Assembly: GCF_000244875.1 (NCBI RefSeq)
Contig: NC_016791.1
Span: forward strand, 663,501-727,500
Length of the DNA stretch: 64,000 nucleotides
Source of the DNA: Clostridium sp. BNL1100
GTDB taxonomy: Bacteria; Bacillota; Clostridia; Acetivibrionales; DSM-1351
Direction: 5' to 3'
This document shows positions 1 through 9,753 of the stretch, one piece after another (position 1 is the stretch's first letter; each line of letters opens with the position of its first letter). The position numbers and the translations under genes are program-made. The notes under the pieces are model-generated. The model saw only the letters and a list, made by a program, of their open reading frames with translations, made no database searches and was not told the origin of the DNA.

Positions 1-1
1 A

Positions 2-892
2 GGTGGTTTTGTAATTTCAAGAGGTAATATATTAATGGCAATAACGGCATCTATTTTGTCATTATTCTTATCATTACTATTTGTCATAGTTGCGGGTCGT
101 TTAACAGGTACCATAGGAACTTCTAACCTACCTGTATCCGGTATGACCATAGCTTCTATAGTTATTGTAACATTACTATTCGTTATATTGGGATGGAAAA
201 ATACTGAGAATAACAAGTCCTTACTTTTATTTGGTACATTCATAGTTACCGCTATAGCCATGGCTGGAGGTTATACCCAATCACAAAAAGTTACTTTTTT
301 AATTGGCGGCAGTAAAAATGAAATGCAGAAATACTTTACTATAGCTGGTGTAGTTGGTACTGCTGTAGTTATTGGAACTATATTATTACTTTCCAACCAA
401 TTAGTAATGACCGGTGATAACGTTGCTTTTGCACTACCTCAAGCTAATTTAATGGCAACCTTGACAGCTGGTATAATGTCAGGTAAATTACCATGGGTTA
501 TGGTTATAGCTGGTGCTGTTATGGGAGTTGTTTTATTCTTGTTGAGGCTTTCTGTAATGACAGTAGCAATTGGTTTCTATTTGCCAATATCTACAACCTC
601 TATAATTTTAATAGGTGCATTAGTTAGATTTTTTGTTGAAAAAGCTAGTAAATCTGAACAAGAAAAAGATGCAAGGGTTTCAAATGGTATAAGCTTGTCT
701 TCCGGACTTGTTGCCGGAGGGTCTATAATAGGACTGATAGGCATAATACTGCAAGTTACAGGAGTTATAAAGGGAGCTGGTCCAAGTGGATTTGTTGCTT
801 CTAACGGAATGGCATTTATAATATTGATAGTACTGGTATTAGCTACAATACTACCTATTCTAAAAGCTAAGGTGGAAAATGCTGAGAAATAG
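2..892 (+). CDS. OPT-family oligopeptide transporter, C-terminal part (5' end outside window)
   Basis: The reading frame is open from the left edge (codons from base 2, GGFVISRGNILMAI...), so the ATG at 35 is internal and the gene is cut by the window. About 296 residues remain, with about seven hydrophobic membrane segments. The segment SNLPVSGMTIAS is typical of the prokaryotic OPT (oligopeptide transporter) family, and the protein ends in a charged tail, KVENAEK. OPT proteins take up peptides or metal chelates by proton coupling in the cytoplasmic membrane; the substrate cannot be told from this part. The full family length is usually 600-700 residues, so more than half lies upstream. No terminator is obvious downstream, where a decayed insertion element begins at once. 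Confidence 0.8.
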   Translation, partial: GGFVISRGNILMAITASILSLFLSLLFVIVAGRLTGTIGTSNLPVSGMTIASIVIVTLLFVILGWKNTENNKSLLLFGTFIVTAIAMAGGYTQSQKVTFLIGGSKNEMQKYFTIAGVVGTAVVIGTILLLSNQLVMTGDNVAFALPQANLMATLTAGIMSGKLPWVMVIAGAVMGVVLFLLRLSVMTVAIGFYLPISTTSIILIGALVRFFVEKASKSEQEKDARVSNGISLSSGLVAGGSIIGLIGIILQVTGVIKGAGPSGFVASNGMAFIILIVLVLATILPILKAKVENAEK

Positions 893-1138
893 CGGCATCA
901 GATTTTTGTGCAATTGTCCACAAAGATAAATCAGGTATGAGGGAAAGAAGAATGGATAGAAGCTTCCAATGGCCCATAAGTGCAGACGCTGTCCGGTTAA
1001 TTCGCACAAGAATTCCCGATGGCTTTTAGAAAGGTTGCAATAGATTAACCCAAGGCATTAAGAAGATAATATTAGAGGCTGCGTCTGAAGATAAAAGGTC
1101 TAAAGCTCTTACAATTACTGGATTATGTGGCATTTTCA

Positions 1139-1147
1139 TGGTATAAT
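1139..1147 (+). promoter_or_regulatory. Extended -10 promoter for the helicase operon
   Basis: TGGTATAAT matches the TGnTATAAT extended -10 consensus; no good -35 is present 16-18 bases upstream. It lies 34 bases before the ATG at 1181, inside the IS66 remnant, and is the nearest promoter-like site for the tnpC remnant, helicase and nuclease-like genes. Confidence 0.45.
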
Positions 1148-1180
1148 ATTTACTAAAATACTATTAGGAACAGTGATTAA

Positions 1181-1423
1181 ATGAGCGAGGCAGAGCAGAT
1201 AGAAACAATTGAAAATCAAATATTAGAACTTAAGCAGGAGAATAAACGTCTTCATGAAACCATTGATTATCTCACCAGGAAGTTCCTCGACAGAAGGTTA
1301 GAAAAAATATGGGTTCTTACCTTGAATCAAATGTCTTTGTTCGATGAACCGGAGAAACTTTATAGACACCCTTCCAAAAGGCAAATTTTATTTGGCTTGG
1401 TTAGAAGGGAGGGATGCGCATGA
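1181..1423 (+). pseudogene. Truncated IS66 transposase (TnpC) N-terminus, 80 codons, coupled to the helicase
   Basis: The 80-residue product starts with a coiled-coil region (QILELKQENKRLHETIDYLTRK) followed by FLDRRLEK...NQMSLFDEPE. This matches the leucine-zipper and LTRKLFGRxSEK...QMSLF(D/N)E region of IS66 transposases. The C-terminal 20 residues are not IS66-like, and the DDE catalytic part is absent, so it cannot transpose. The ORF is nevertheless intact, has an AGGA site upstream, and its stop overlaps the likely helicase start as ATGA at 1420-1423. It may therefore serve as a translated leader for the helicase. Whether the peptide does anything is unknown. Confidence 0.6.
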
Positions 1424-4400
1424 AAGTCATAACTTTTATAGATACAGAGATTGAGCCTAACAGTGGTAAAATTCTTGATATCGGAAGTATTAAGGTCGAC
1501 GGCAGCTCATTCCACTCAAATTCGGTATCAGAATTCAAAAAATTCATACAAGGGTCTCAATATGTTTGCGGTCATAATATTCTATATCATGACTTGAAGT
1601 ATATAAAAAATACTATTATTGAAGAAGACCTAGAGGACCTGAATTTTATAGATACTTTATATTTATCCCCTCTGCTGTTTCCGACAAAGCCTTACCACGC
1701 TTTGCTTAAGGACGATAAGCTACAGACAGAAGATACCAATAATCCATTGAATGATTCAATAAAAGCCAGAGATCTTTTTTTTGATGAGGTTACAGCCTTT
1801 CACCAAATGGACAAGCTGCTGAAGAAAATATATTACAGCTTATTGAAAGACAAGAAGGAGTTCGGGTCTTTCTTTCATTTTCTTGAATACAACGAAAATA
1901 CTATAGATATAGAAAATATGATTCGTGAAAAGTTTAATTCTCAAATATGTGAAGAGGCTAATCTTTTAGAGATTATTACAGAATACCCCATAGAACTTGC
2001 CTATAGCTTGGGACTTATTAATACAAAAAGCAGATACTCCATCACACCGCCATGGGTGCTTAAGAATTTTCCTGCTGTTGAAAAAGTAATGTTTTTACTG
2101 AGAAGCAATCCGTGTTTGAGGGGATGCTCATATTGTGATCAAGCGCTTGATATTCATAAAGGTCTGAAGCGCTTCTTTGGCTTTGATTCATACAGAACCT
2201 ACGGTGGAGAACCATTACAGGAGAAAGCTGTCAAGGCCGCTATTTCCAATAAGTCTCTCTTGGCAGTGTTTCCAACTGGTGGAGGAAAGTCAATTACTTT
2301 CCAAGTACCGGCATTAATGAGCGGAAGGAATTTAAAAGGTCTGACTGTAGTTATTTCTCCTTTGCAGTCATTAATGAAAGATCAGGTTGATAATCTGGAA
2401 AAAGCGGGTATCACAGAAGCCGTTACTATAAATGGCTTGCTTGACCCAATTGAAAGAGCAAAGTCTTTTGAAAGAGTCGAAAACGGGTCTGCCTCTATAC
2501 TATATATTTCTCCTGAATCTCTACGATCAAAGACAATAGAACGGATACTTCTGGGAAGAAATGTTGTCCGTTTTGTAATAGATGAGGCACACTGTTTTTC
2601 ATCCTGGGGACAGGATTTCAGAGTTGATTACTTATATATCGGGGACTTTATAAAGACATTACAGGAAAGGAAAAATATGGAAGAAGGAATACCTGTTTCC
2701 TGCTTCACAGCTACTGCAAAGCAAAAGGTTATAGAGGATATTCGTGAGTATTTTAAAGAAAAGTTATCGCTGGACATGGAGATTTTCAGCTCAAATGCAT
2801 CAAGAAGTAATCTGCGCTATAAGGTATTTCAGAAAGAGAGTGAAGAAGAAAAATACAATACAGTACGAGATCTGATTGAAGAAAAAAACTGCCCTACAAT
2901 CGTTTATGTATCACGTACCAGAAAAGCATACTCCCTGGCTCAAAGACTGGTTCAAGACGGTTATCAGGCAAAGCCCTATCACGGCAAAATGGACAAGCAG
3001 GAAAAGTCTGAAAATCAGGATGCATTTATTAGGGGAGAGGTTCAAATCATGGTTGCAACATCTGCTTTTGGAATGGGAGTAGACAAAAAAGATGTGGGCA
3101 TGGTTATTCATTACGAAATATCCGATTCTCTTGAAAACTATATACAGGAAGCGGGAAGGGCAGGAAGGGATGAGTCTGTTTCGGCAGATTGTTTTGTCTT
3201 ATTCAATGATGAAGACTTGAGTAAGCATTTCATTCTTCTTAATCAAACCAAACTTAGTATTCAGGAGATACAGCAGGTATGGAAGGCAATTAAAGATATT
3301 ACCAGATTTAGATCAAGGGTATCTCAATCTGCTTTGGAGATTGCACGAAAGGCAGGTTGGGATGATAATATCAAGGAGATAGAAACCCGTGTAACTACTG
3401 CAATTGCAGCATTAGAAGACTCTGGCTATCTCAAACGGGGCCAGAATATGCCAAGGATATATGCAAACAGTATCCTCTCTAAGAATGCTATGGAGGCTAT
3501 TGCCAAGATAAATAATTCCGGCCGGTTCACTGAAAAGCAAAAGATGAATGCAACTCGCATTATAAAAAAGCTTTTTTCCAGTAAGAGCAGAAGACACACA
3601 ACGGATGAAGACGGTGAAGCGAGAATAGACTACATCTCGGATTATTTGGGGATTGTAAAAGAGGAAGTTATACAGATTATTAGTCTTCTCAGGGAAGAAA
3701 AGATATTGGCCGATACAAAAGATCTATCCGCCTTTATTAAGAGAAAGGAAAGTAAAAACCGATCACTAGCTATTTTGAAATCTTTTCGTAGCCTTGAAGG
3801 CTTTTTGCTAACTATTCTGGAAAATGAAGAAAAAATATTACATATAAAAGAATTGAATGAACAGGCAGAACGAAGTGGTTTCAATGATGTGACTCCAAAT
3901 AGGATAAAGACCGTATTTAATTTCTGGGCTATTAAAAACTGGATTAAAAGACAAACTGTGGAATACTCAAAAAACCATATAGCAGTCCTTTCCCTTCAGT
4001 CCAAGGAATGGTTTGAAGAAAAATTAACAAAGCGATATGAATTGGCGCAATTTATTGTGGAGTATCTTTATGATAAAAGCATTACTTCCGCAGCAACTGA
4101 AGAATTAAATAGAGATGAAATTTTAGTTGAATTTTCCATTTTAGAATTAAAAGAAGAATTTGAAGGCAGATTGCTGCTTTTTAATACAAAAGTTACTGTT
4201 GATGATATTGAAGATGCACTCTTTTATTTATCAAAAATTGAGGCATTAAAAATCGAGGGTGGCTTTATGGTGGTTTATAATGCTCTTACAATTGAACGTC
4301 TCGAAAAGGATAATAAGAAGCGCTACAAGATAGAGGATTATCAGAAACTTAATCAGTTTTACCAGAATAAAGTACAGCAAATTCACATTGTAGGGGAATA

Positions 4401-6231
4401 TGCTCGGAAAATGATAAGTGATTACAAAGCTGCGCTGCAATTTGTAGACGACTATTTCCATCTGAATTACATATCTTTTTTGAATAAATATTTTAATGGC
4501 AGCCAACAGAATGATATAAGAAGAAATATTACACCTGCCAAGTTCAAGCAACTTTTTGGAGAACTGTCTCCAACTCAATTAAAGATTATTAATGATAATG
4601 AATCAAGATATATTGTAGTGGCGGCAGGGCCGGGAAGCGGTAAAACAAGAATTCTGGTTCATAAGCTGGCATCATTATTGCTGATGGAGGATGTAAAGCA
4701 TGAACAATTGCTAATGGTGACTTTTTCAAGGTCAGCCGCTACCGAATTTAAGATACGTTTGCTTAAGCTCATTGGTAATGCAGCCAACTTCATAGAAATC
4801 AAAACATTTCATTCTTATTGTTTTGATTTGCTGGGAAGGGTAGGAACCTTGGAAAAATCGGAAGAAGTGATCCAAGAGACTATTAGGAGAATCAAAAGTG
4901 GAGACGTTGAAGCAGGCAGAATTACAAAAACTGTTCTGGTAATAGATGAAGCACAGGATATGGATGCCAATGAGTTTGAGTTAATAAGCGCTTTAATGGA
5001 GTATAATGAAGAAATGCGAGTAATTGCTGTTGGGGATGATGACCAGAATATTTATGAATTCAGAGGTGCAAGTTCTAAATATCTGAAAATACTGATAAAT
5101 GAAAAAAATGCTATGTTGTATGAACTGGTAGAAAATCACAGAAGTAAATCCAACCTTGTTCATTTTTCAAATCAATTTGTAAAAAGAATTCCGAATAGAT
5201 TAAAGAACACACCTATTATTGCAGTTCAAAAGGATATGGGCAAAATAAAGCTTGTTAAATACCGGAGCTGTAATCTTATTACACCTCTTGTAAATAATAT
5301 TCTGAGAGAAGGGCTTGTAGGAAGTACTTGTGTTTTAACTAAGATGAACGAAGAAGCACTGCATATTGCAGGCCTGCTTGTGAAAAATGGGATACAGGCA
5401 AAATTAATACAGTCAAATGATGGTTTCAATTTGTATAACCTTCTGGAAGTTAGATTTTTTTTAAGTCAGCTTAATTTGTATGATGATATTTATATGATAA
5501 GTGATGATGTTTGGGCAGGGGCAAAGAGAAGACTAATAGAACAATTTCCAAACAACCCCAATTTAGAAACCTGTGTTAATCTCATCAAAGATTTTGAGGC
5601 TGTAAATCCTAGAAATAAATATAAATCGGATCTCGAGATTTTTATTCGTGAATCAAAGCTTGAAGATTTCTTTAGCGAAAATATGGAAAAAATATTTGTT
5701 TCAACTATTCACAAGGCTAAAGGCCGTGAATTTGATAATGTTTTTTTGATGCTAGACCGATTTAATATTGGAACTGATGAAGCTGTAAGGCAGTTGTATG
5801 TTGCTATGACAAGGGCAAAACGCAATCTAACCGTTCATTATAATGGTAATTATTTGGATTCTATAAAGGCTGAAGGACTTCATATTATTGAAGATTTTGG
5901 TGAGTATCAACCGCCCGGCCAATTTGCAATGCAATTAACTTTCAGGGATGTATGGCTAGATTTCTTTATGTCTTGCCAAAACCTGATTTCTGAGCTTAAT
6001 AGTGGAGATATACTTGCCGTTGATGAAGATTGCTGCCGCAATTCAAGAGGACAAGCAGTTTTAAGGTTTTCTAAACAATTTATCAATCAGATTAAGTCAA
6101 TAAAGCAAAAAAACTATTTACCTAAAGCAGCGAAAATTAGATTTATAATATATTGGAAGAAAGAAACCCTTGATTGTGAAATCAGGATTATTCTACCTGA
6201 ACTTTATTTTGAAAGAGAAGAGGATTTGTAA
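1420..6231 (+). CDS. Exonuclease-RecQ-UvrD fusion helicase (about 1600 aa)
   Basis: Residues 1-130 (numbered from the ATG at 1414) resemble a DnaQ-type DEDD exonuclease: D10-T-E12, D60 in GHNILYHDLKY, and D114 in NNPLNDSIKARDL. The usual DEDDh His five residues before the last Asp is Asn109. Residues 234-241 hold a C-x3-C-x2-C cluster. A RecQ-type SF2 helicase follows, with FPTGGGKS (286-293), DEAH (390-393) and QEAGRAGRDE (578-587). A complete UvrD/Rep SF1 helicase comes last: AAGPGSGKT (1070-1078), DEAQD (1178-1182), GDDDQNIYEFRG, STIHKAKGREFD and YVAMTRAKR. The ATG at 1420 is preferred over 1414 because GGGAGGG lies at 1407-1413, six bases before it. The protein probably unwinds and trims DNA in repair or defence. 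The domain order is seen directly; the role is inferred. Confidence 0.85.
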   Translation: MKVITFIDTEIEPNSGKILDIGSIKVDGSSFHSNSVSEFKKFIQGSQYVCGHNILYHDLKYIKNTIIEEDLEDLNFIDTLYLSPLLFPTKPYHALLKDDKLQTEDTNNPLNDSIKARDLFFDEVTAFHQMDKLLKKIYYSLLKDKKEFGSFFHFLEYNENTIDIENMIREKFNSQICEEANLLEIITEYPIELAYSLGLINTKSRYSITPPWVLKNFPAVEKVMFLLRSNPCLRGCSYCDQALDIHKGLKRFFGFDSYRTYGGEPLQEKAVKAAISNKSLLAVFPTGGGKSITFQVPALMSGRNLKGLTVVISPLQSLMKDQVDNLEKAGITEAVTINGLLDPIERAKSFERVENGSASILYISPESLRSKTIERILLGRNVVRFVIDEAHCFSSWGQDFRVDYLYIGDFIKTLQERKNMEEGIPVSCFTATAKQKVIEDIREYFKEKLSLDMEIFSSNASRSNLRYKVFQKESEEEKYNTVRDLIEEKNCPTIVYVSRTRKAYSLAQRLVQDGYQAKPYHGKMDKQEKSENQDAFIRGEVQIMVATSAFGMGVDKKDVGMVIHYEISDSLENYIQEAGRAGRDESVSADCFVLFNDEDLSKHFILLNQTKLSIQEIQQVWKAIKDITRFRSRVSQSALEIARKAGWDDNIKEIETRVTTAIAALEDSGYLKRGQNMPRIYANSILSKNAMEAIAKINNSGRFTEKQKMNATRIIKKLFSSKSRRHTTDEDGEARIDYISDYLGIVKEEVIQIISLLREEKILADTKDLSAFIKRKESKNRSLAILKSFRSLEGFLLTILENEEKILHIKELNEQAERSGFNDVTPNRIKTVFNFWAIKNWIKRQTVEYSKNHIAVLSLQSKEWFEEKLTKRYELAQFIVEYLYDKSITSAATEELNRDEILVEFSILELKEEFEGRLLLFNTKVTVDDIEDALFYLSKIEALKIEGGFMVVYNALTIERLEKDNKKRYKIEDYQKLNQFYQNKVQQIHIVGEYARKMISDYKAALQFVDDYFHLNYISFLNKYFNGSQQNDIRRNITPAKFKQLFGELSPTQLKIINDNESRYIVVAAGPGSGKTRILVHKLASLLLMEDVKHEQLLMVTFSRSAATEFKIRLLKLIGNAANFIEIKTFHSYCFDLLGRVGTLEKSEEVIQETIRRIKSGDVEAGRITKTVLVIDEAQDMDANEFELISALMEYNEEMRVIAVGDDDQNIYEFRGASSKYLKILINEKNAMLYELVENHRSKSNLVHFSNQFVKRIPNRLKNTPIIAVQKDMGKIKLVKYRSCNLITPLVNNILREGLVGSTCVLTKMNEEALHIAGLLVKNGIQAKLIQSNDGFNLYNLLEVRFFLSQLNLYDDIYMISDDVWAGAKRRLIEQFPNNPNLETCVNLIKDFEAVNPRNKYKSDLEIFIRESKLEDFFSENMEKIFVSTIHKAKGREFDNVFLMLDRFNIGTDEAVRQLYVAMTRAKRNLTVHYNGNYLDSIKAEGLHIIEDFGEYQPPGQFAMQLTFRDVWLDFFMSCQNLISELNSGDILAVDEDCCRNSRGQAVLRFSKQFINQIKSIKQKNYLPKAAKIRFIIYWKKETLDCEIRIILPELYFEREEDL

Positions 6232-6275
6232 GTCAGAAGAGCTTGATAAATACATTATATTTGAGGTGAATATAG

Positions 6276-7634
6276 ATGTTTGACGAGAAATTTATAAAAG
6301 AGATAAAGCATATAATATATTTGATTTTTCAATATGGCATCGATAGAGTAAAAAGTCCTAAACAATCTTTAAAATTTAAAGATATTGGCTCATATCATGA
6401 GTTTATTAAAAATGTACATACAGGGTTTATGATTGCCCAAAAAGATATATTGTTAGGCCTTGAAAGGGAAAGTATAAATAAAAAGAAACTCAAAAATAGG
6501 TTAAGAGAAGCCAATAATAACAAGAACAAGGATTTGTCTAAAGAATTAAGGGAAAAAATAAGTGAAACTGAAGAAAAAGAGTATATATATAGAAAGCTTG
6601 CTGACTCTATTGCTTGGCAGCTTGTTCAAATGGATGGAACATCTATCAGGCGTTTTTACAGAAATGTAAACCAAATAGATATTAAAAGTGCTAATATAAC
6701 TCACGATTTAAAAACGGTAGACGAAATTTTTAGCTCTAACAAATTACACTTTCCGTTAATATCTGATATTACATCATTCATGCAAGTTGGAGATTTATTA
6801 ATATGTGATAGAGAGGAAAACAGAATTGGTATTCTTGAACTAAAAGAAGGGCAAGTAAATGAAAAAATTGAAGAAATAATTGATGAATTTTCAAAAACTC
6901 AATGTGAATATATGCTATATTTAGCTACCAAAGATGAAAATCAAAAATTCCATAAGCAATTTGACAGGTACTTAAAGCAACAAAGAGTTATGGAGGAAAC
7001 AATCAATATAATAAATACAGGTAAAGGCATTGATAGCTCTACAGGAGTAAATATTTCAATACCCCGTGACGTTTTCAATGTAGAAAGTTTTGACCAAGAT
7101 ATAGCTAAAATGCTTATGGAGACAAATAAGAAAAACTATTCAACACGAGTAATAGATGATTGTCTTTTAGTAGGAGTATATAATAACATTCGTCTCTTAG
7201 GGCTGGTAAAGGCATTTATATCATGGGTTAGGGGACTTAAAATAGAGTTTCCAATTATTAATTTTACCAGTTCATTAAGGGTTCCTGCCGCTTTTCCGAT
7301 ATTTCTTCATCCATTTTCTTTGGAAGATAAAATAAAAATAATTAATGGTGAGAAAACAATTTTAATGTGTTTGGATATAGAGAAATGGCTTGAAAAGATG
7401 AGTGAATATGGAATAACATACAAAATTTTATCAAAGAAAGAAACTGCACGTATCAACAGTAATTCTGATATTAAGGCATTTGAATATAAAGGTCAGGCAA
7501 TAGAAATTACCTATGAAGCGACTAGCGGATTATTATACGATGGTATTTTCTCAAGAATGTTCTATGAACTCACCACACCAAAAAGTTTGATAAAATTTTT
7601 AATCCATATGCGTAAACATCAGAAAATACTTTAA
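6276..7634 (+). CDS. Putative PD-(D/E)xK-type nuclease partner of the helicase
   Basis: This 452-residue soluble protein matches no family I can name. Residues 60-110 are highly charged and probably helical or coiled coil. Residues 164-190 read SDITSFMQVGDLL...GILELKEG, giving D173 and E188-x-K190 on predicted beta strands. That spacing is the PD-(D/E)xK nuclease core pattern, in which the acidic residues and lysine bind metal and cut DNA. The fold is inferred from this motif alone. The ATG at 6276 has GAGGTGAA upstream and lies 44 bases after the helicase stop with no terminator between, so the two genes are probably one operon. It could instead be an accessory DNA-binding protein. Confidence 0.5.
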   Translation: MFDEKFIKEIKHIIYLIFQYGIDRVKSPKQSLKFKDIGSYHEFIKNVHTGFMIAQKDILLGLERESINKKKLKNRLREANNNKNKDLSKELREKISETEEKEYIYRKLADSIAWQLVQMDGTSIRRFYRNVNQIDIKSANITHDLKTVDEIFSSNKLHFPLISDITSFMQVGDLLICDREENRIGILELKEGQVNEKIEEIIDEFSKTQCEYMLYLATKDENQKFHKQFDRYLKQQRVMEETINIINTGKGIDSSTGVNISIPRDVFNVESFDQDIAKMLMETNKKNYSTRVIDDCLLVGVYNNIRLLGLVKAFISWVRGLKIEFPIINFTSSLRVPAAFPIFLHPFSLEDKIKIINGEKTILMCLDIEKWLEKMSEYGITYKILSKKETARINSNSDIKAFEYKGQAIEITYEATSGLLYDGIFSRMFYELTTPKSLIKFLIHMRKHQKIL

Positions 7635-7754
7635 GTGAGGTTGCAGAAAAAGAAAACAATTAATCATAGACAACATCCGATTTAAACCACAATAATCCAA
7701 TGCGATAAAAAAATAAGTGTTTGTAACACTAATAGTACATTTATTGTCCCAACA

Positions 7755-7977
7755 GGTTATATCTTACTAGCTACATTCCATCAAGAAATGATTCCAACCC
7801 AATTATTGATTAGAATTGCAGCTCAGCGTGAAGGAGTACCCTTTCCTGCTTTTGTTGAAGCCTTATTCATGGAGGGAAACATTTAAAATATTAAGAGAAG
7901 CTGGGGTAAGGATGCCTAAGGTTATAGGGTTGGCAATATCCATCTACTTGGGGGTTAAAGGTATGTCTCAGACATGA
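7755..7977 (+). pseudogene. Spore germination GerA-family protein remnant
   Basis: One frame gives GYILLATFHQEMIPTQLLI followed by RIAAQREGVPFPAFVEALFM, then a stop. After a frameshift near 7880, another frame gives TFKILREAGVRMPKVIG and a short tail ending at TGA 7975-7977. Joined, these match the conserved central part of GerA/SpoVAF-type germinant receptor A subunits (TFHQEMIPT, AAQREGVPFPAFxEAxxM, FEILREAGVRxPxxIG). Only about 75 of some 500 codons survive, with no start and one frameshift, so it is a dead fragment. It shows that this organism or an ancestor forms spores. The preceding 120 bases (7635-7754) hold no recognisable gene. Confidence 0.75.
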
Positions 7978-8982
7978 TTATTTATTTATAGCTTCTAATA
8001 AATCTCCTATTGCCTTCTTTTCGTCCTCATACATTTTATGTAAAGATTCAATTACAGTATTTATTTTATTTTTGTTTTTAGTAATATTATATTTGATTAA
8101 GATATTTCTATTATTTAAAGCTTCATTTTCTAATTCATAAAAGATATTAATGAAATTATTATTAGTATTAATGTATTTATTTTCAACAAAGTATTCTAGG
8201 CGGGACACCATAGTTTTTTTATGTTCATAAAGTAAATGAAAATGTCTAATGTCACCTTCTTCTTCAGAATCATTTTTAAGGATATTCTCATAATATTTTA
8301 TCAATTGATCATATACTGAAATCCCATATACTAAATTGTTTGGAGTTCCTATTGTACGGAAATTAAATGATGTATTTTTAGATAAGAGATAGTCAGATAA
8401 TAGGTTTCTAACATTTTCCATGTCGAATTCATATGATGGACGATATGATGTACTATCTTTGGCTTTCATTAAAATTATATCATTGGTTTTCTTTATAGAA
8501 TTCAAGAAACTGTTTTCAAATTCAGAAAAACTAACACATGTTGGATAATAAGTACCCGCATCATTATAACCTATTACGTTAAATAGACTTTTATCTGAAT
8601 CATAACCATAAATCATAATCTCATGTCTGAAGTGTACTTTTTTCAGGTATGATACTCTATGGGGTATAAAAAACTCGTCAGTATAAGTCATTACATAATA
8701 ACCGAGATTTAAACTGCTTTTTATAAAATCAATTATATTTATATTTGATTTAAATATAAATTCTAAATCTAAAATTTTGTAATCTATTAATGGACTTAAA
8801 ATGGAGTTTCCACATATTGGATATGTAAAGAAATTTAGAAAATAATAGTTAACATCAACTTGCAATTGTATATAATTACTAAAAAACCATGAATTAAAAT
8901 CTTTGTGAGACATTGCGACAGTTAGCGGATAGGCATGATGTAAATAACAATTTATTGGTGGCTGATTAAGTTCTAATTTCAT
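7978..8982 (-). CDS. BtrH-like / papain-fold protein of unknown substrate
   Basis: The 334-residue protein has no signal peptide and no membrane segment. A Cys near the N-terminus (C12, in INCYLHHAYPL), a later His in FRHEIMIYGYDSDKSLFNVI, and an acidic or amide residue in GYNDAGTY follow the Cys-His-Asp/Asn order of C39/papain-like folds. The layout resembles the BtrH N-terminal domain family, whose founding member moves an acyl group from an acyl carrier protein to an aminoglycoside. The C-terminal third is helical and rich in Asn, Lys and Ile. The start is preceded by GAGG, and the stop abuts the gerA remnant. An acyl-carrier-like remnant lies about 760 bases beyond its start. The assignment rests on weak pattern similarity. 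Confidence 0.4.
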   Translation of the reverse strand: MKLELNQPPINCYLHHAYPLTVAMSHKDFNSWFFSNYIQLQVDVNYYFLNFFTYPICGNSILSPLIDYKILDLEFIFKSNINIIDFIKSSLNLGYYVMTYTDEFFIPHRVSYLKKVHFRHEIMIYGYDSDKSLFNVIGYNDAGTYYPTCVSFSEFENSFLNSIKKTNDIILMKAKDSTSYRPSYEFDMENVRNLLSDYLLSKNTSFNFRTIGTPNNLVYGISVYDQLIKYYENILKNDSEEEGDIRHFHLLYEHKKTMVSRLEYFVENKYINTNNNFINIFYELENEALNNRNILIKYNITKNKNKINTVIESLHKMYEDEKKAIGDLLEAINK

Positions 8983-9342
8983 TTGTATTACCTCACTTCT
9001 TTAAGTTTTAAACGTGTTAAATGCTTGTGTAATACTAGGTGGGGTTGTTTTATAGAGCATATATCATACAAATAATACCAAAAATATAATAAATTATCAA
9101 TAATTCAATTAAAATGTAGCAAAAGCCCCTTGCAAGCATTTAAATTCTTATTACAAAATCTGAATAAAATTACAATATATGTTATAATTTACAATAATAC
9201 ATATACTATGGTTATGGCATACCATTTAAGGAGGTCATAATTTTAAAGGTAAAATATCCATAAGAAAATCTCTATTTTTTATAATTACAAGTAAATTTTT
9301 AATTAATTTAAACTCATTAAGGTTAAGTATGTAGGAATCTTT
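8983..9342. other. Gene-poor AT-rich spacer with a possible lost gene start
   Basis: No intact ORF was found. A TATAAT box lies at 9183-9188 with only a weak -35. A strong AAGGAGG ribosome site at 9229-9235 is followed not by a start codon but by a frame reading NFKGKISIRKSLFFIITSKF (about 9239-9298), which stops at 9332. This looks like the N-terminus of a membrane protein that has lost its ATG. The identity of that protein is not clear. Confidence 0.35.
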
Positions 9343-9753
9343 GTGAGTTCAAATAAAATAATTCGGCTGAAGTTTACAAACAAATTCGGCTTGTTTGCCT
9401 TCGAAATCTCACAGGACGTAGCTCCGGATGTTGTAATAGCCAGCTTGCTGTATGAAGATTATAAGCTTGAGGGATTCGATACGTATACAAATTTGTTTAA
9501 ATATAAGCTTGGATTTGAGGTTGATTTCTTCAACATTACAAATATGAAATTCGATTGGTTAAGAGCAAATGAGGAATATGTTAGTTCTTATATTTCATTG
9601 GATTACAAGTTTATAGATGAAAAGAAAACAAAATTTACTAAAAATAAAATACCCGTATTTAATATTCTGAATAAAGATGATTCCGATACTATTGCGAAAC
9701 AAACTATCGAAAAACTTACCGGGTATGCGGATGTACAGATACATATACTTTGA
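9343..9753 (+). CDS. Hypothetical protein, 136 aa
   Basis: The frame starts at GTG 9343 with a modest AGGA upstream (about 9333-9336). The product is soluble, rich in Phe, Lys, Asp and Ile, and has no signal peptide or membrane segment. I recognise no family. Its 3' end overlaps in another frame with an acyl-carrier-like remnant, and it lies in a decayed neighbourhood. It may be a real orphan gene or a fragment of a longer one whose start was lost. Confidence 0.35.
   Translation: MSSNKIIRLKFTNKFGLFAFEISQDVAPDVVIASLLYEDYKLEGFDTYTNLFKYKLGFEVDFFNITNMKFDWLRANEEYVSSYISLDYKFIDEKKTKFTKNKIPVFNILNKDDSDTIAKQTIEKLTGYADVQIHIL

Follow-up and report, generated by a model that had tools for sequence, protein, structure and literature searches.

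Two accessory genes side by side in Clostridium sp. BNL1100: a RecQ/UvrD helicase and a candidate prophage-borne nuclease that are probably independent of each other

We analysed a stretch of 64,000 nucleotides of Clostridium sp. BNL1100 (NC_016791.1, positions 663,501 to 727,500), hereafter the window, in which two neighbouring genes encode a long helicase and a candidate nuclease, here called p2 (Table 1). Each is a single open reading frame (ORF), and the ORF calls agree with a preliminary description of this DNA in placing p2 on the same strand, 44 bases behind the helicase; the helicase start given there, 1420, is the next in-frame ATG after 1414. The two genes had been taken together as a candidate defence or repair system. 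We consider it probable instead that two independent accessory genes landed together at this site, and that p2 is a candidate prophage-borne, single-gene anti-phage nuclease.

Table 1. Features of the locus, with positions counted from the first nucleotide of the window.
Feature	Position	Strand	Basis
Exonuclease-like/RecQ/UvrD helicase	1414..6231	+	one ORF, 1605 amino acids
DEDD-exonuclease-like domain, amino acids 1-150	1414..1863	+	D10, E12, D60, D114; weak PDB profile matches
Cysteine cluster C234-x3-C238-x2-C241	2113..2136	+	ahead of RecQ motor; alignment
RecQ motor (superfamily 2), amino acids 251-629	2164..3300	+	TIGR00614; PDB 1oyw, E 2.9e-54
UvrD motor (superfamily 1), amino acids 1045-1479	4546..5850	+	Pfam UvrD-helicase, UvrD_C; motifs
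p2, candidate PD-(D/E)xK protein	6276..7634	+	one ORF, 452 amino acids
Nuclease-like core of p2, about amino acids 141-250	6696..7025	+	invariant columns; model
DNA unit common to window p2 and the p2 of the G009 prophage	6254..7639	+	87% identity, flanks unrelated
Acquired block	871..7673		empty site in same-genus genome G005
80-amino-acid ORF	1181..1423	+	ORF call

Both genes lie in acquired DNA, as had been proposed. In G005, a genome of the same genus, the matches to window positions 1-870 and 7674-7733 are 32 bases apart, so that about 6.8 kb, both genes included, is extra in the window. Among the 11 genomes of the genus, the helicase is confined to the window genome. A copy of p2 is present in another genome of the genus (G009), with a regulator-like gene on one side and phage integrase, terminase and portal genes on the other. 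The DNA similarity between the two copies covers the gene and little more, and because it ends at the gene boundaries, p2 travels alone. The helicase and p2 may have entered the window genome jointly or successively.

A conserved pairing of the two genes is not supported. The helicase was detected at E <= 1e-100 in 19 of 148 relatives, the window genome included, and none of the 18 others carries a true p2 in a single-query search, which a very distant p2 could escape. The p2 search of the 148 relatives returned the window genome, G009 and G047 only; the match in G047 (28% identity over 100 amino acids, E 3.4e-4) falls within an unrelated ORF (L044 8496-9374), and G047 was thus rejected as a genome with both genes. 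We read 15 of the 18 helicase loci, leaving out G028, G037 and G048: in 14 of them the contig reaches far enough to include a downstream gene, which is never p2-like, whereas in L041 it stops just behind the helicase gene. The reverse search gave the same picture, with the helicase (E <= 1e-100) in none of the 16 other genomes with p2, two of which hold weak members, a truncated p2 in G456 and a distant one in G353 (17 genomes were searched, the sole match being G047 with its false p2). The 26 plasmid records with helicase matches (E <= 1e-60) do not overlap with the 12 that carry p2.

The order of exonuclease-like domain, RecQ motor and UvrD motor, already read from the helicase in the preliminary description, stands. 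It was examined with Pfam, NCBIfam and an alignment of 19 full-length proteins (the window protein among them, identity 77% down to 28%). Pfam places DEAD at amino acids 267-442 and Helicase_C at 479-585, with the best stretches of UvrD-helicase and UvrD_C at 1052-1144 and 1383-1477 (E 1e-21 to 6e-31 for the four domains); PF00580 and PF13361 both exceed their cut-offs. The motifs DEAH, QE-x-GR, GxGxGKT, DE-x-QD, GDDDQ and H-x2-KG-x-E occur in 19/19 aligned proteins, while the Walker A of the RecQ motor reads GGGKS in 14, GTGKS in 4 and GGGKT in 1. TIGR00614 (RecQ family) is matched with 279.2 bits against a cut-off of 219.8; the cut-off of the RecQ equivalog TIGR01389 is missed (325.4 vs 640.2), and RQC and HRDC are absent from the 14 Pfam matches of the helicase (E <= 1). 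RecQ and UvrD motors move 3' to 5', and both motors of this protein would be expected to run in that direction. Its likely task would be to unwind DNA at junctions or stalled forks and to trim it.

The N-terminal domain of the helicase has no Pfam match. Its residues D10, E12, D60 and D114 are present in all 19 aligned proteins, D114 being missing from one additional homologue on a viral contig (L120). With a best E of 0.014, a profile of the domain had eight weak matches in PDB (E <= 1), each to an exonuclease according to the deposited name or domain: four labelled 'exodeoxyribonuclease III', two of which show DnaQ-type motifs in the alignments printed, and one each of DnaQ, PolC-type, DEDDh and Cas2-DEDDh. 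Motif conservation and these weak profile matches point to a putative exonuclease. The three cysteines ahead of the RecQ motor are present in 17 of the 19 proteins, L048 and L091 being without them, and their spacing changes to x2-x2 in L041 and to x4-x2 in L086, L087, L088, L089 and L090. In RecQ proper, a zinc site lies behind the motor; the cluster is possibly metal-binding and perhaps a relocated metal site.

The helicase family occurs in the window genome (Bacillota) and in Bacteroidota, Campylobacterota, Pseudomonadota and Cyanobacteriota. Identity to the window protein is 50% in Bacteroides finegoldii, 36% in Aliarcobacter cibarius and 28-30% in Allochromatium vinosum, Sulfitobacter, Cereibacter, Rhizobium, Thiothrix and Nostoc sp. 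Full-length plasmid homologues of about 1600-1750 amino acids are labelled 'RecQ family ATP-dependent DNA helicase' in public records. The protein is thus known to annotators as a RecQ family helicase, and it occurs by itself in many bacteria; we found no paper naming an exonuclease-RecQ-UvrD fusion in its title or by the phrases searched. The chromosomal neighbours at the 15 loci look ordinary by reading (seryl-tRNA synthetase, PolX-like, ferritin-like and sugar-nucleotide transferase genes), so that the helicase occurs without p2 in settings of the kind that had been named beforehand as evidence against a joint system. Similar genes are kept downstream of the helicase in three loci of one genus (L032, L034, L035), and the Allochromatium helicase adjoins type I restriction genes. 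Eight of the 26 plasmid neighbourhoods were read as well. Matches of the helicase in PADLOC (DpdF, PsyrT, GajB) were rejected as a sign of defence, since they are located in the shared motors; at E <= 0.01, PADLOC also matched 3 of 10 helicase-neighbour genes from relatives, the products of which we read as response regulator, RecD-like helicase and ferritin-like protein. The default role suggested by the biochemistry of RecQ, UvrD and DEDD proteins would be repair or recombination. A defence role, as suggested before, is possible for the helicase and not indicated; it is likely for p2 alone, from the neighbourhood evidence given below.

The setting of helicase homologues varies. In L119, a methyltransferase-like gene lies near the homologue, and in L120 (3189-16455) a GIY-YIG-like gene directly precedes the homologue and genes of RhuM-like and primase-like type lie downstream of it, all by reading; L120 is a contig that we take to be rich in conflict genes, possibly a conflict island. 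In L121 (1-1911), a Bacteroides-type helicase is cut to its first 160 amino acids and followed by integrase-like and phage-like genes, as read, which may reflect integration of a phage inside the helicase gene. The gene is broken by stops or frame changes in L040, L042 and G028:C23, which suggests decay or assembly error.

The preliminary description had recognised in p2 the nuclease-type signature D173...E188-x-K190, and this signature withstood comparison across the family. D173, E188 and K190 are invariant in 17/17 and 18/18 members of two alignments (A2 and A3, window p2 included) and are retained at 21-28% identity; the invariant residues of the core are D164, D173, E188-x-K190, G192, N195, R231 and Q235. 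In the structure model (predicted local distance difference test, pLDDT, 88.9; predicted template modelling score, pTM, 0.88), the core consists of a helix, three strands and a helix, in that order, with D173 immediately ahead of strand 174-178 and E188-x-K190 immediately behind strand 183-187. It weakly resembles EndoMS, Hjc and VRR_NUC, at Z scores too low to prove the fold. We found no convincing match of p2 across four family libraries, and PADLOC returned none for the window p2 at E <= 1, nor for the p2 of E. coli or of L053 at E <= 0.01. The signature is supported and the fold weakly so, and p2 is a predicted nuclease.

The p2 family is scattered over mobile DNA. It was detected on 12 of 72,556 plasmid records (among them NZ_OL790696, which at 4.8 Mb is presumably a chromosome), at 12 or more loci of species genomes in a single pattern scan, on 24 distinct viral contigs in three scans, and in 4 of 398 genomes of the phylum of the window genome, itself included. 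Complete E. coli genomes hold two forms, one linked to AbiH in 66 of 5426 genomes (64 over >= 80% of the query) and one known from a P2-like setting in 18 of 5426 (15 over >= 80%); two contexts were read for the former and one for the latter. Other members are found in Pseudomonas, Halomonas, Lysobacter and Chlorobiaceae. A tblastn search of 50,697 phage records, phage P2 included, with two family members gave no p2 match.

Within prophages, the position of p2 changes from one to the next. The gene lies directly behind an integrase in the prophage contigs L068 and L096-L099 (PHROGs confirms the integrase in L096) and also behind integrases in L065 and L080. It adjoins gpD-like or ogr-like genes in L100, L103-L106 and L117, the gpD-type tail protein being confirmed in L100 and L103 and ogr/Delta annotated in L117. 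In L102 and L112, it is placed between tail-completion (S-like) and baseplate (V-like) genes, the first of which is confirmed in L112; in L101 and L115, it stands beside tail genes, and in L067 ahead of a head-maturation protease, in a prophage that is Mu-like by reading. In its distribution p2 conforms to a moron, i.e., cargo in varying slots. A distant p2-like protein from the phylum of the window genome (L082 1762-3126) keeps, by reading, the D...E-x-K residues and lies behind an HNH-endonuclease-like gene, which had been considered as a recombinase and was rejected as such.

Several p2 copies lie directly behind genes with a defence-related annotation. Because PADLOC had matched 3 of 10 helicase neighbours and alone over-calls, AbiH, Abi_2, DUF2971 and MTES_1575 were judged by Pfam cut-offs; the loci were read individually and no enrichment is claimed. 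In E. coli, AbiH (Pfam 233.1 vs cut-off 30.9) precedes p2 by 89 bases on the same strand, and it is also directly upstream of p2 on plasmids of Enterobacter, Raoultella and Klebsiella. In Pantoea and Erwinia, an Abi-family gene is found 16 bases upstream on the same strand, the Erwinia copy matching Pfam Abi_2 (34.5 vs 25.6) and PADLOC PD-T4-5. In Pseudomonas saxonica (L062), DUF2971 lies 31 bases upstream (Pfam 34 vs 22; PADLOC PDC-S31), and in a Chlorobiaceae genome (L063) the gene 49 bases upstream encodes a large AAA helicase (AAA_11/AAA_12) that also has an MTES_1575 nuclease domain. The TIR-like gene 227 bases upstream in Halomonas (L055) is matched in PADLOC only, with 33 bits, and its Pfam match to Nuc_deoxyrib_tr is under the cut-off; in L056, a PDC-S31 match is one gene further upstream. 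The tandems of AbiH and p2 were observed in L045 (13987-16376, E. coli DETEC-E601), L046, L025, L050 and L051. They belong to E. coli prophages of Qin type and to plasmids of Enterobacter, Raoultella and Klebsiella, where AbiH may as a rule be accompanied by a second gene.

We propose that p2 moves as a single gene, which prophages and plasmids carry as a moron, and that its product consists of a predicted N-terminal helical hairpin (amino acids 37-116), a presumably metal-dependent PD-(D/E)xK core and a C-terminal alpha/beta part (amino acids 288-450), which may serve to recognise a trigger. Most likely p2 would guard the lysogen or plasmid host, cutting nucleic acid upon infection by another phage; we infer this catalysis, target, trigger and protection from genes whose conservation, mobility and neighbourhood are observed. 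Since p2 is carried by prophages and plasmids and lies several times beside anti-phage genes, we regard it as a promising new phage-defence candidate. Weighing against this proposal, many copies (among them L024, L054, L057-L059, L061 and L066) have, by reading, no defence neighbour. That the helicase and p2 instead form the single conserved defence or repair system first suggested is very improbable: the 44-base spacing, the common strand and the common acquired block would fit such a system, but the pair was seen nowhere else among the genomes and plasmid records that were compared. Nor do we think it likely that p2 is the portable partner of whatever effector lies upstream, a shared sensor or nuclease, in which case the pair in the window would be real and rare. 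Besides the helicase, five types of gene annotated as defence-related lie upstream of p2, on the same strand and 16 to 227 bases away by ORF calls or annotation, and AbiH and p2 are kept together in E. coli and in the plasmid copies of Enterobacter, Raoultella and Klebsiella. However, many copies are partnerless, behind integrases, in tail-gene intervals or by gpD/ogr, plasmid copies exist without a defence-annotated upstream gene, and the helicase is without p2 in 18/18 other relatives. A related possibility, that p2 is a portable defence module behind unrelated effectors, supplying a sensing or cutting step and also acting alone in prophages, seems distinctly unlikely to us.

The single-gene defence proposal has also to be weighed against readings in which p2 is not a defence nuclease. 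It could serve the prophage or plasmid itself, in DNA processing, maintenance or counter-defence rather than host defence, and the copies that adjoin an integrase or attachment end are consistent with this; we regard it as unlikely, as the varied prophage types and positions, the plasmids and the sites without evident phage genes are unlike a core phage function, and the 50,697 phage records hold no match. Alternatively, p2 could have a similar core without being an active nuclease, and act as a regulator that binds DNA or RNA, in line with the weak structural matches and the lack of a convincing family match. This is rather improbable, given that D173, E188 and K190 are invariant at 21-28% identity and a non-catalytic core need not retain them. 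Overall, helicase and p2 do not make up a new system; the helicase is of a known kind, and the p2 family is nameless in the four libraries. As p2 is a single gene with a clear active-site prediction that can be cloned in E. coli, a defence role is directly testable, and the same experiments would also show whether AbiH, an old abortive-infection gene, acts with a second gene where both travel together.

Two further observations concern the surroundings of the genes. The 80-amino-acid ORF ahead of the helicase presumably resembles the N-terminus of the IS66 TnpC transposase, and it has no IS66 match in Pfam. Behind p2, window positions 7635-9753 hold remnants of a peptide-maturation cluster, including a weakly matched BtrH_N-like ORF (7978-8982) and a C-terminal piece of TIGR04066 (9343-9753); in G005, the matches of these remnants are spread over a longer stretch.

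Compared with known systems, the window helicase shares its full-length architecture with the plasmid proteins labelled 'RecQ family ATP-dependent DNA helicase', whose records differ from the window locus in that none of the 26 is among the 12 with p2. With E. coli RecQ (1oyw) and TIGR00614 it has the motor domain in common, but it is unlike RecQ in having no RQC or HRDC match and in combining that motor with an exonuclease-like domain and a second, UvrD motor. Helicases in PADLOC such as DpdF and GajB (among the best 25 of 63 matches) likewise share RecQ or UvrD motors with it; however, the PADLOC helicase matches are confined to the motor regions, and DpdF scores 230.3 in NCBIfam against a cut-off of 550. 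For Gabija, no GajA partner was found, p2 being without a PADLOC match and the 80-amino-acid ORF, the one remaining neighbour within the block, lying outside the PADLOC scan. EndoMS (5gke), Hjc (4tkd), VRR_NUC (4qbn) and SPO1766 (3dnx), which we take to be PD-(D/E)xK nucleases, have no sequence match to p2, which adds to such a core its helical hairpin and C-terminal part. The slots of the p2 relatives are comparable to those of the nonessential or lysogenic-conversion genes orf30, fun(Z), tin and old of phage P2, in whose record fun(Z) lies between G and FI, and orf30 occupies the same S-V slot as p2 in L102 and L112.

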